Part shown: piece by piece, positions 36,956 to 41,067 of the stretch
Layout: each line of letters opens with the position of its first letter
Position numbering within the stretch: position 1 is the first letter of the stretch
Assembly: GCA_021822485.1 (NCBI GenBank)
Contig: JAKAQP010000001.1
Span: 47,506-111,505 of the forward strand
Reading direction: 5' to 3'
DNA: 64,000 nucleotides
DNA from: a bacterium
Lineage (GTDB): Bacteria; SZUA-79; Acidulodesulfobacterales; Acidulodesulfobacteraceae
Position numbers and translations under genes: made by a program
Notes under the pieces: model-generated
The model's database searches: none
What the model was told of the DNA's origin: nothing
The model's input: only the letters and a program-made list of their open reading frames with translations

Positions 36956-37891
36956 ATGTTGACAGACGTTCAAAATTCAAAAGACGGAAGAGGTATAGCC
37001 ATAGATAAGGTCGGCATAAAAAACCTGCATTATCCTATATCGGTTCTCGATAAAGCAAAATCATTCCAGCATACCGTGGCAGACATAAATATGTACGTCG
37101 ACCTTCCGCATTATTTCAAAGGGACGCATATGAGCCGCTTCTTAGAAGTTTTAAACGAGCACAGGGGCGAAATAAGCATAGTTAATTTTCCCGATATTTT
37201 AAGAAAAATAAAGAAAGTTTTAAACGCGGGTTCAGCATCCGTTGAAATTGAATTCCCGTATTTTATAGAAAAAACCGCTCCGGTAAGCGGAAAGAAAAGC
37301 CTGATGGAGTATATTTGCTATTATAATGGAACTATAAAAGACGGAAAAGCAGCTGCGCCGAAACAGGAAAAAGCAGAAATAAATGAAATAAAGAGGTCGG
37401 CAGCAATAAAGGGGTCAGAAATAAAGATGTCGGCAATAAAGGGGTCAGAATTCAATTCTGACCCCTTTATTGCCGATAAGAAAGAGTCCACCTACGCTCC
37501 CTGCACCGATGATGAAAGTTTAATAATAGTCGGCGTCAAGGTGCCTATAAACACTCTTTGTCCATGTTCTAAAGAGATATCGAAATACGGAGCGCACAAT
37601 CAGAGAGGCATCGTTTCGGTTTCGATAGAGTTCGATAAACTGATATGGTTCGAGGATATAATAGCCGATGTGGAATCGTGCGCAAGCTCCCCTATTTATT
37701 CGCTGTTAAAGAGGGAAGACGAGAGGTTTTTGACCGAACATGCTTATGAAAATCCTATGTTTGTCGAGGATGTGACAAGGTGCGTAGCGGGAATACTCAA
37801 AAAGAATAAAAATATTAAATGGTTCAGGGTGGAAGCGGAAAACTTCGAAAGCATACATAATCATAATGCGTATGCGATGATAGAGGGTTGA
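36956..37891 (+). CDS. folE2: GTP cyclohydrolase FolE2 with a palindrome-encoded insertion
   Basis: First enzyme of folate/pterin (and sometimes queuosine) synthesis, the zinc-independent type IB form. Seen: family N-terminus (IDKVGIKNLHYPISVLDKA), the metal-site motif TLCPCSKEISKYGAHNQRG near residue 201, and the final FRVEAENFESIHNHNAYA. At 311 residues it is about 50 longer than typical. Residues about 147-174 are an insertion (SAAIKGSEIKMSAIKGSE and onward), encoded by a 45-base perfect palindrome and a partial copy before it. The insertion precedes the catalytic motif by some 25 residues, and the frame is intact on both sides, so the enzyme is probably active with a surface loop. Confidence 0.93.
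   Translation: MLTDVQNSKDGRGIAIDKVGIKNLHYPISVLDKAKSFQHTVADINMYVDLPHYFKGTHMSRFLEVLNEHRGEISIVNFPDILRKIKKVLNAGSASVEIEFPYFIEKTAPVSGKKSLMEYICYYNGTIKDGKAAAPKQEKAEINEIKRSAAIKGSEIKMSAIKGSEFNSDPFIADKKESTYAPCTDDESLIIVGVKVPINTLCPCSKEISKYGAHNQRGIVSVSIEFDKLIWFEDIIADVESCASSPIYSLLKREDERFLTEHAYENPMFVEDVTRCVAGILKKNKNIKWFRVEAENFESIHNHNAYAMIEG
37398..37475. repeat. In-frame palindromic element in folE2 (partial plus complete copy)
   Basis: A perfect odd palindrome of 45 bases (37431-37475; two 22-base arms around C37453) with core GGGGTCAGAATT-C-AATTCTGACCCC. A diverged half copy (37398-37420) with the same CGGC..AATAAAGGGGTCAGAA stands just upstream. Both are read in frame, giving GSEI and GSEFNSDPF. Confidence 0.9.
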
Positions 37892-37907
37892 AGGGAAACA
37901 GAGGTTT

Positions 37908-37965
37908 GTCATTCCCGCGAAAGCGGGAATCCAGAAAGGTGTCAGAATTGAATTCTGACACCTTT
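37908..37965. repeat. Composite repeat: ATTCCC-N8-GGGAAT plus odd palindrome upstream of aroC
   Basis: Bases 37908-37934 are GTCATTCCCGCGAAAGCG followed by GGAATCCAG, a dRS3-shaped repeat. It runs straight into a 31-base perfect palindrome (37935-37965; arms AAAGGTGTCAGAATT around G37950). The core differs from the folE2 copy by one compensated base pair (GGTGTC/GACACC). The aroC ribosome-binding site (GAGGAGGT) starts 6 bases after it, so the hairpin could affect aroC translation. Confidence 0.88.
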
Positions 37966-37989
37966 ATTTCTGAGGAGGTAATAATTAAA

Positions 37990-39219
37990 ATGCTTAGATT
38001 TTTGACGGCGGGGGAGTCGCACGGCAAGGGGCTCGTTACCATAATAGACAACTTTCCTGCGGGCGTTAAAATAGACGAAGATTTCATAAACGACAAGCTG
38101 AGGCTTAGGCAGTCGGGTTACGGAAGGGGCGCAAGGCAGAAGATAGAAACCGACAAGATAGAGTTTTTATCAGGCGTCAGGGGAGGCTTAACTACCGGTT
38201 CGCCAATCTCGTTTTTTATAAAAAACAAGGATTACGAAAACTGGCGGGACAGGATGGACCCCTATAAATCCGTTCCCGAAGAAAGCAAAATCCATACTCC
38301 GAGGCCGGGGCATGCGGATTTTGCAGGTTCTATAAAATTTGGATTAGACGATATAAGAAATGTCCTTGAACGTTCGAGCGCAAGGGAAACTGCGTCGAGG
38401 GTTGCGGTCGGGGCGATTTGCCAGATACTTCTGAAAAATTTCGGCATCGAGTTTGCTTCGGCTGTACTTAACATTGGCGGGGTAGGAGTTGAGGCGGATG
38501 AAATTTCTGGGGAGAAAAAGAAAAAGGGGTCAGAATTAAATTCTGACCCCTTTGCCCTTAATCTTATCGACCTTTTCGACGAAGTTATAAGTAGAAATAT
38601 AAAAAACTCCGAACTCCGCATGCTTTATTCCGAACATGAAGAAAAGGCAAAGGCGTTTATCGACAAGATGAAAGCCGAAGGCGATACAGTCGGAGGACTG
38701 ATAACCGCCCAGGTAAAAGGCGTGCCGGTGGGTCTCGGCAGTTTTACACAGTGGGACGAGAAATTAGACGCCCAAATAGCGATGTCCGTAATGAGCATTC
38801 AGGCTATTAAAAGCGTAGAAATCGGCGCCGGAGTAAAATCCGCCTATCTAAAAGGTTCGGAGTGTCACGATTCGATATATTGCGGCAGCAGCGGCAGCTT
38901 TTATAGAAAAACCGACAATGCCGGCGGTATAGAAGGCGGAATGTCCAACGGAGAAATAATAAGCGTAACATGCGCCATGAAACCCATACCCACTTTAATG
39001 AAGCCCTATCTCGACACCGTAGATTTAAATACCTGCGAAGCAAAAAAAGCATTTCTTGAAAGGTCAGACGTATGCGCCGTTCCTGCCGCGTCCATCGTCG
39101 TCGAATCAGCCGTCGCTTTTTCGATATGCTATTTTTTCCTTAAAAAATTTGGCGGCGACGGTTTTGCCGAGATTAAAAGAAACTATGACGGGTATTGCAA
39201 AAATGAAAATAAGAACTAA
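37990..39219 (+). CDS. aroC: Chorismate synthase with a palindrome-encoded insertion
   Basis: Makes chorismate from EPSP using reduced FMN, the last step of the shikimate pathway. Seen: N-terminal MLRFLTAGESHGKGLVTII, RQSGYGRGARQKIE, RPGHADFAGSIKF, ERSSARETASRVAVG and GGIEGGMSNGE, all family signatures. ATG 37990 follows a strong GAGGAGGT; an in-frame upstream extension encodes only repeat (SFPRKRESRK) and is rejected. At 409 residues it exceeds the usual 360-390. Residues about 175-190 (KKKGSELNSDPFALN) are encoded by a palindromic repeat, set in a variable loop before the DLFDEVI helix. aroK overlaps its 3' end by 17 bases. Confidence 0.96.
   Translation: MLRFLTAGESHGKGLVTIIDNFPAGVKIDEDFINDKLRLRQSGYGRGARQKIETDKIEFLSGVRGGLTTGSPISFFIKNKDYENWRDRMDPYKSVPEESKIHTPRPGHADFAGSIKFGLDDIRNVLERSSARETASRVAVGAICQILLKNFGIEFASAVLNIGGVGVEADEISGEKKKKGSELNSDPFALNLIDLFDEVISRNIKNSELRMLYSEHEEKAKAFIDKMKAEGDTVGGLITAQVKGVPVGLGSFTQWDEKLDAQIAMSVMSIQAIKSVEIGAGVKSAYLKGSECHDSIYCGSSGSFYRKTDNAGGIEGGMSNGEIISVTCAMKPIPTLMKPYLDTVDLNTCEAKKAFLERSDVCAVPAASIVVESAVAFSICYFFLKKFGGDGFAEIKRNYDGYCKNENKN
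38522..38552. repeat. In-frame palindromic element in aroC
   Basis: A perfect 31-base odd palindrome with arms AAAGGGGTCAGAATT around A38537, the same core as the element in folE2 but with A at the centre. It is translated in the same frame as in folE2, giving GSELNSDPF against GSEFNSDPF. Confidence 0.9.
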
Positions 39220-40981: not shown

Positions 40982-41003
40982 AATTTTTATGATTTAGCAT
41001 GTT

Positions 41004-41030
41004 CGGGGACAGATTTTAAATCTGTCCCCG
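41004..41030. repeat. Odd palindrome between flagellin and flaG
   Basis: A perfect 27-base palindrome with 13-base arms (CGGGGACAGATTT) around T41017. Its core (GGGGACAGA/TCTGTCCCC) is a variant of the folE2/aroC palindromes. It may also end or attenuate the flagellin transcript, although the following T run is weak. Confidence 0.82.
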
Positions 41031-41067
41031 ATTTCTATAACTTCCATATAAAAAGAAGTGATATATC

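Follow-up and report, generated by a model that had tools for sequence, protein, structure and literature searches.

Palindromes within the reading frames of folE2 and aroC in Acidulodesulfobacteraceae: a probable origin from Y1 transposon ends and probable upkeep of their symmetry by template switching

The window analysed here is a stretch of 64,000 nucleotides (nt) from a member of the Acidulodesulfobacteraceae (GCA_021822485.1, contig JAKAQP010000001.1, positions 47,506 to 111,505). Its source genome, labelled G000, is a 1.6-Mb metagenome-assembled genome (MAG) in 95 contigs; relatives from the family are labelled G002 and so forth, and homologues carry the names Candidatus Acidulodesulfobacterium and Acididesulfobacter. 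All genomes used are fragmented MAGs, and G010 may be mixed. In the window, the genes folE2 and aroC adjoin each other, and three palindromes are located within 1.1 kb (Table 1). Two of them are part of the reading frames of folE2 and aroC, while the third is intergenic, close 5' of the aroC start, and has GGTGTC in place of GGGGTC. Copies resembling the third palindrome also sit between folE2 and aroC in G010 and G004. On its left it is abutted by an unrelated short inverted repeat, at the place of which G010 has different DNA.

Table 1. Features of the folE2-aroC locus (positions in the window unless given as residues)
Feature	Position	Strand	Evidence or remark
folE2, GTP cyclohydrolase FolE2, 311 aa	36956..37891	+	NCBIfam NF010200, 271.8 bits (cut-off 215)
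Long variable loop in FolE2	residues 132-183		only segment below pLDDT 50
Older partial left arm gcagcaataaaggggtcagaa, 5' of the folE2 palindrome	37401..37425	+	sequence; arm copied directly over 18 nt
30-nt in-frame insertion relative to G004, place approximate	37423..37452	+	boundaries blurred by repeats
Perfect odd palindrome in folE2, 47 bp, arms 23 bp	37430..37476	none	centre C 37453
Short unrelated inverted repeat CATTCCCGCGAAAGCGGGAATCC, left of third palindrome	37910..37932	none	sequence
Third palindrome GGTGTCAGAATT-G-AATTCTGACACC, GGTGTC type, arms 15 bp	37935..37965	none	sequence
aroC, chorismate synthase, 409 aa	ATG 37990..stop 39219	+	NCBIfam TIGR00033, 368.9 bits (cut-off 212.2)
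Variable loop in AroC	residues 170-190		only segment below pLDDT 50
Perfect odd palindrome in aroC, 31 bp, arms 15 bp	38523..38553	none	centre A 38538

As described in the original prediction, both coding palindromes are perfect, keep the frame and are translated to GSEFNSDPF (FolE2 residues 163-171) and GSELNSDPF (AroC residues 180-188). The symmetry is full, as had been stated, but the arms, given as up to 22 bp, reach 23 bp in folE2. None of 100 dinucleotide shuffles matched these palindromes, and arms in 20 first-order Markov sequences of 64 kb reached 11 bp at most, compared to 23, 15 and 15 bp observed. The predicted RNA folding energies of the three palindromes are -37.5, -18.3 and -21.7 kcal/mol. 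The use of one frame in both genes, likewise part of the prediction, was found as described but is weak evidence: one frame of AAAGGGGTCAGAATTNAATTCTGACCCCTTT always hits TGA, another hits a stop wherever N is a purine, and the observed frame alone stays open in every case. Since stop codons close the other frames, the common frame is mostly explained thereby, and it was abandoned as an argument.

The FolE2 palindrome is located between two long strands, in the segment 132-183, and the AroC palindrome in the segment 170-190. In the predicted structures, no other segment of at least three residues in either protein has a predicted local distance difference test (pLDDT) value below 50, and both loops are predicted to be disordered. 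Both proteins had been expected to exceed their families by about the length of the insert. For FolE2, the excess is far larger than the palindrome (61 residues opposite 6 in PDB 2r5r), while the aligned span of AroC comprises 403 residues compared to 388 in 1q1l. Relatives carry intact, decayed or other palindromes, low-complexity stretches or a short loop at these places; the palindromes that relatives have in the same two loops differ in their arms. The folE2 genes of other genera contain a different palindrome (GGTGTCAGATTT-n-AAATCYGACACC), and G007 (L089) has the same longer inverted repeat type in both loops, encoding KGTDLFF...SVPF peptides. The AroC loop of another genus holds a tandem repeat, NINKDNINSIN... 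(L072 of G027, P0207, P0208). Among the loops that could be cut (69 of 120 FolE2 and 93 of 120 AroC sequences), the palindrome motif was present in 31 and 43, respectively. Some further loops (P0022, P0034, P0160, P0162) presumably resemble translated dispersed palindromic repeats at the protein level, e.g. NHRHSSESRNLDY, SLRAKRSNLE. Outside the loop, FolE2 shows little variation, with a median end branch of 0.012 changes per column in a tree that lacks 5 of the 26 rows, those that could not be cut. As 13 of its 18 inner branches are open, no events were mapped on this tree.

The original prediction implied a dispersed repeat and had named the absence of the core elsewhere in the genome as a point against it. 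The exact core was indeed found nowhere else in G000, where the palindrome type is restricted to folE2-aroC; the single arm, in contrast, is dispersed (23 copies in G000; matches in 27 of the 30 genomes of the family), and the palindrome also occurs elsewhere in relatives. With up to three mismatches, no palindrome with both arms of the GTCAG type was found in G000 outside its three sites at the locus, and G004 has such palindromes only at the three corresponding places; two more sites, one in each of the two genomes, carry GTCAG in a single arm. The genome-wide test therefore does not support dispersal of two-armed GTCAG sites in G000 or G004, and this reading was rejected. In the 30 family genomes scanned, GTCAGAWTTnAAWTCTGAC occurs 34 times in ten genomes. 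Eighteen of these occurrences belong to the folE2-aroC locus (13 within the reading frames of the two genes, five between or upstream of them). Of the 16 others, two keep the frame of a gene, namely one for a sigma-54-type regulator in G003 and a ribonucleotide-reductase-like one in G008, which were identified by translation only. Many copies are inherited orthologues, so that these counts do not represent independent events. In a collection of 84,980 species, 14 stretches contained the exact core: four are folE2-aroC loci of relatives, one is another site in one such MAG, and by their titles seven are gammaproteobacterial and two belong to Desulfuromonadales or Desulfobacteraceae.

A second palindrome, GGGGACAGAATT-n-AATTCTGTCCCC, tagged by TTGTGAC on one side and often in tandem, is distinct from the GTCAG type and essentially intergenic. 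It makes up the majority of the CAGAATTnAATTCTG-type sites (35 in G000, three of them at the locus, and 49 each in G004 and G011). Among the listed sites, those in stop-to-stop frames of more than 165 codons fall within the first 60 codons or the last 15, the exceptions being folE2 and aroC of G004 and aroC of G011. Tandem arrays have a spacing of approximately 37-41 bp (L233, L243 and L248 of G004; L209 of G000). Elsewhere in the window, a fourth perfect palindrome (TCGGGGACAGATTTTAAATCTGTCCCCGA, arms of 14 bp, 41003-41031) is located directly 3' of a flagellin-like gene; three close copies of this type were found in G004.

A check for a transposase associated with repetitive extragenic palindromes (a RAYT), as originally proposed, proved relevant, since the palindrome arm corresponds to repeats flanking RAYT-like genes of the genus. 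The Y1 transposase genes of the genus (PF01797 above cut-off) are adjoined by the repeat AATAAAGGTGTCAGATTTATTTATT or its GGGGACAG form, and the best NCBIfam match of the encoded proteins is REP_Tyr_transpos (75.2 and 64.3 bits, both below the cut-off). In G008, three copies of AATAAAGGTGTCAGATTTATTTATT are located upstream of the Y1 gene and four inverted (reverse-complement) copies downstream. The Y1 genes of G000, G004 and G005 have one inverted copy downstream, the gene of G000 being cut by the contig end. The outer 15 bases of the repeat, AAAGGTGTCAGATTT, are identical to the arm of the sister palindromes of the GATTT type (15/15) and match the GAATT type of the window at 14 of 15 positions. 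In the DNA examined, 49 distinct one-armed copies were found, many of which share an extended end. The name TIRYTs (TIR-associated tyrosine transposases) has been given to RAYT-like genes that lie between inverted repeats with the shared motif GGGGWSAS (Di Nocera et al., PMC3733652). This motif is fitted by GGGGTCAG in the folE2 and aroC palindromes and by GGGGACAG, but not by the GGTGTC copy, a GGTGTCAG variant. Because the arm matches repeats that flank Y1 genes, a transposon end is taken as the starting material, from which the palindrome arms likely derive.

If a palindrome is simply inserted, symmetry should stop at its edge. For the tagged type, symmetry extended 0.64 bp past position 14, compared to 1.23 bp after shuffling (44 of 70 sites, those with arms of at least 14 bp). 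For the GTCAG type, it extended 5.27 bp past position 15, compared to 0.98 bp after shuffling and a maximum of 2.39 bp in 5000 shuffles. This test covered the 33 of 42 GTCAG sites with arms of at least 15 bp (31 from the genus, two from gammaproteobacterial records) and omitted nine with shorter arms. At 15 of the 16 sites off the folE2-aroC locus (one tagged site of G013 was omitted), the mirrored extension was 5.53 bp compared to 1.75 bp after shuffling, with 3.67 bp in the largest shuffle; several of these extensions consist of A and T only, others do not (tgcgggaat, tctgcaga). One-armed copies showed little symmetry (stem 5.08 compared to 4.40 after shuffling, largest shuffle 4.94). A gammaproteobacterial record (L035, centre 1469) has arms of 29 bp that include a mirrored older half copy, and on this case the mirroring process may extend beyond the genus. 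Symmetry that reaches into unique gene flank, and differs among orthologues, points to copying from arm to arm and not to ready-made insertion alone.

The folE2 genes of G010 and G000 contain 30 additional nucleotides in frame compared to G004. Without this insertion, the sequence of G010 equals that of G004 at 75 of 82 positions. In G010, the final 23 of the 30 nucleotides (TATCGGCAATAAAGGGGTCAGAA) correspond exactly, as reverse complement, to the right arm with seven flank bases past AATAAAGG; direct matches to the left side cover nine nucleotides at most. In G000, one flank base differs, and the arms measure 23 bp compared to 25 bp in G010. In G008, an old left half precedes a new left arm, and the latter mirrors the right arm over 21 nucleotides. 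G010 itself has two folE2-aroC loci (C13 and C75) with different loops, which might reflect a duplication or a mixed bin.

Changes on the two arms were compared in two alignments, the rows of which are related and chosen. The first (A3) consists of the only four alignable orthologous folE2 loops (G003, G026, G019 and G020; 67 columns). Two stem pairs are altered on both arms (C-G to T-A; A-T to G-C and to T-A), with one unpaired cell there, and in G020 pairs have been lost from the outer stem. The second (A4) comprises five loops of the window's kind out of the seven that were cut, omitting G002, whose arms are imperfect, and the first locus of G010, which is near to G000. Here, three pairs are altered on both arms, 99 of 100 cells pair, and the covariation score was reached in none of 500 shuffles. 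At the protein level, residues with complementary codons co-occur (G..P, V..T, A..A) in 26 of 30 distinct FolE2 contexts and 26 of 32 distinct AroC contexts, in which only the free positions count, since the expression used for the search predetermines part of the motif; the exceptions include A..T, V..A and G..A. These alignments support a concerted change of the arms without proving it. The genes carrying the seven loops diverge by 0.09 to 0.52 at fourfold sites, and the palindromes thus persist, or are remade, over considerable time.

Taken together, the palindromes of folE2 and aroC probably arose from ends of Y1 (RAYT-like, HUH-type) transposons and have likely been kept symmetric by template switching during replication. 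Template switching is taken as the likely cause of mirrored flank, paired changes and templated insertion alike. One transposon end, or two joined head to head, would land in the DNA of a lysine-rich loop, and at replication the hairpin would lead the polymerase to use one arm as the template for the other. Such copying would mend mismatches, bring flank into the new arm and sometimes leave the old arm alongside. Only in-frame, stop-free products would survive, the loop would tolerate them, and no role of the peptide would be required. Reporters in E. coli have been built on hairpin-driven arm copying (PMC7202029), and arm copying by template switch has been inferred in yeast genes (PMC8604942) and in RNA genes (PMC8794818). 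A narrower and more tentative version is that the coding palindromes were born in place, i.e. that a single transposon end, having landed in a disordered loop, folded back and was copied with gene flank to give a perfect palindrome, the cycle then repeating.

Several observations weigh against the proposed origin and upkeep. The mutation events are those that comparison of extant sequences suggests. The NCBIfam RAYT model was missed by a few bits (cut-off 80), the repeats beside the Y1 genes of G002 and G003 share one orientation instead of being inverted, and no repeat was found next to the Y1 gene of G014. Seven of the nine sites in other phyla have arms of only 12-14 bp; since these account for seven of the nine sites omitted from the flank test, mirroring of the flank is chiefly a trait of this genus. 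The older partial arm of G000 agrees directly with the new one over 18 nt, so that the insertion in G000 is possibly a direct duplication with a later change, and it is therefore the flank bases that carry the argument for a templated insertion. At the second G010 locus, the reverse-complement match relative to G002 is just 10 nt. Furthermore, 13 of 500 shuffles attained the A3 covariation score, and 170 of 500 (A3) and 106 of 500 (A4) attained the observed number of pairs altered on both arms. Some palindromes also decay (aroC of G015; folE2 of G002 and G013).

A ready-made palindromic mini-element, consisting of head-to-head transposon ends in the manner of a minimal miniature inverted-repeat transposable element, might instead have inserted whole and repeatedly into tolerant loops and A-rich intergenic sites, which would make template switching unneeded. 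The same core at other sites of G008, G003, G002 and G006, the short arms of most sites in other phyla and the clear dispersal of the one-armed repeat are consistent with this explanation. It is nevertheless unlikely, as it leaves the mirrored unique flank and the paired changes among orthologues unexplained, and G000 and G004 are devoid of two-armed GTCAG copies outside the locus. Recombination of whole loops, by which palindromes would have moved among folE2, gap and aroC or between species with their symmetry inherited, would account for the shared repeat type in both loops of G007 and the shared core in both loops of G000. It would also fit the four A3 loops, which differ little despite a divergence of 31-58% at the fourfold sites of their genes. 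Since recombination does not make arms that match their own new flank, it is very unlikely as the cause.

The hairpins might also be selected as mRNA or DNA structures (attenuator, operator or protein site) tuning folE2 and aroC and be held by compensatory mutation. The strong predicted hairpins, the three copies within 1.1 kb and the paired substitutions would agree with such a role, but the palindromes are decayed or missing in close relatives (aroC of G015, folE2 of G011), and selection alone neither copies flank nor makes templated insertions; this explanation appears improbable, more so than the insertion of a mini-element. Terminators were rejected, as no terminator-like site was found on the coding strand at the palindromes. 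A riboswitch or small RNA was rejected as well: no Rfam family reached the gathering score, and the best matches were weak microRNA models. An assembly artefact or chance is hardly credible. Hairpins can disturb assembly and the MAGs are all fragmented, but the loops recur in several assemblies with separate titles and in protein clusters of several sources, and chance is excluded by the shuffle and Markov controls.

Compared to known systems, the terminal inverted repeats of TIRYTs are similar in that they adjoin RAYT-like Y1 genes, share the GGGGWSAS motif and are self-complementary in some families (PMC3733652). Mirrored flank and arm conversion do not feature in the available text of that paper, the GGTGTCAG variant is off the motif, and in the present case many relatives carry in-frame palindromes within the same two loops. 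Intragenic repetitive extragenic palindromes (REPs; GTAG/CGTC) are likewise short palindromes in genes with in-frame readthrough, thought to be located in loops or linkers (PMC3733652). No GTAG/CGTC tetranucleotide was found beside the three window palindromes, whose arm corresponds to transposon ends. The original prediction had also drawn attention to the coding palindromes of Rickettsia. This likeness was borne out, since both are palindromic inserts in frame at sites tolerant of length change. Rickettsia palindromic elements (RPEs) occur in frame in unrelated genes with a recurrent peptide (PMC10969869). They are approximately 150 bp long, compared to 31-47 bp here. Their repeats are said to lose identity over time (PMC6649704), whereas the palindromes of this family mostly stay symmetric. 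In mitochondria of Nematomorpha, perfect coding inverted repeats apparently keep their identity by repeat conversion, for which template switching has been proposed, although according to the same source the mechanism remains to be established (PMC6649704). Those palindromes are up to 284 bp long, occupy conserved protein regions and are given no mobile source, while here variable loops are affected and a known repeat is matched. Template switching at quasipalindromes is similar in that an arm is copied from the other arm, the repeat is perfected and several changes occur at once (PMC7202029, PMC8604942, PMC8794818). It is known from reporters, yeast strains and RNA genes, whereas in the present case we infer it for transposon-derived coding palindromes with their flank included. 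The case looks like material of the RPE kind that behaves like the maintained palindromes of Nematomorpha. Intragenic REPs, RPEs, terminal inverted repeats and template switching are known already; the combination is new. In the literature searched, which contained few subscription papers, neither bacterial in-frame transposon-end palindromes that mirror gene flank and are remade at two adjoining loops nor the string GGGGTCAGAATT was found.

The locus bears on the question of how palindromic elements enter genes in frame and why some of them stay perfect. At two loops, orthologues with known neighbours supply intermediates as well as paired changes and a templated insertion, and such a series makes the template-switch account testable by comparison and by reporter. 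It offers a concrete route from transposon ends to new protein segments, and it warns that paired stem substitutions need not imply selection on structure. If the coding palindromes were indeed born in place, FolE2 and AroC would hold segments written by backward copying of DNA, and two stretches of one protein would evolve as one linked unit.

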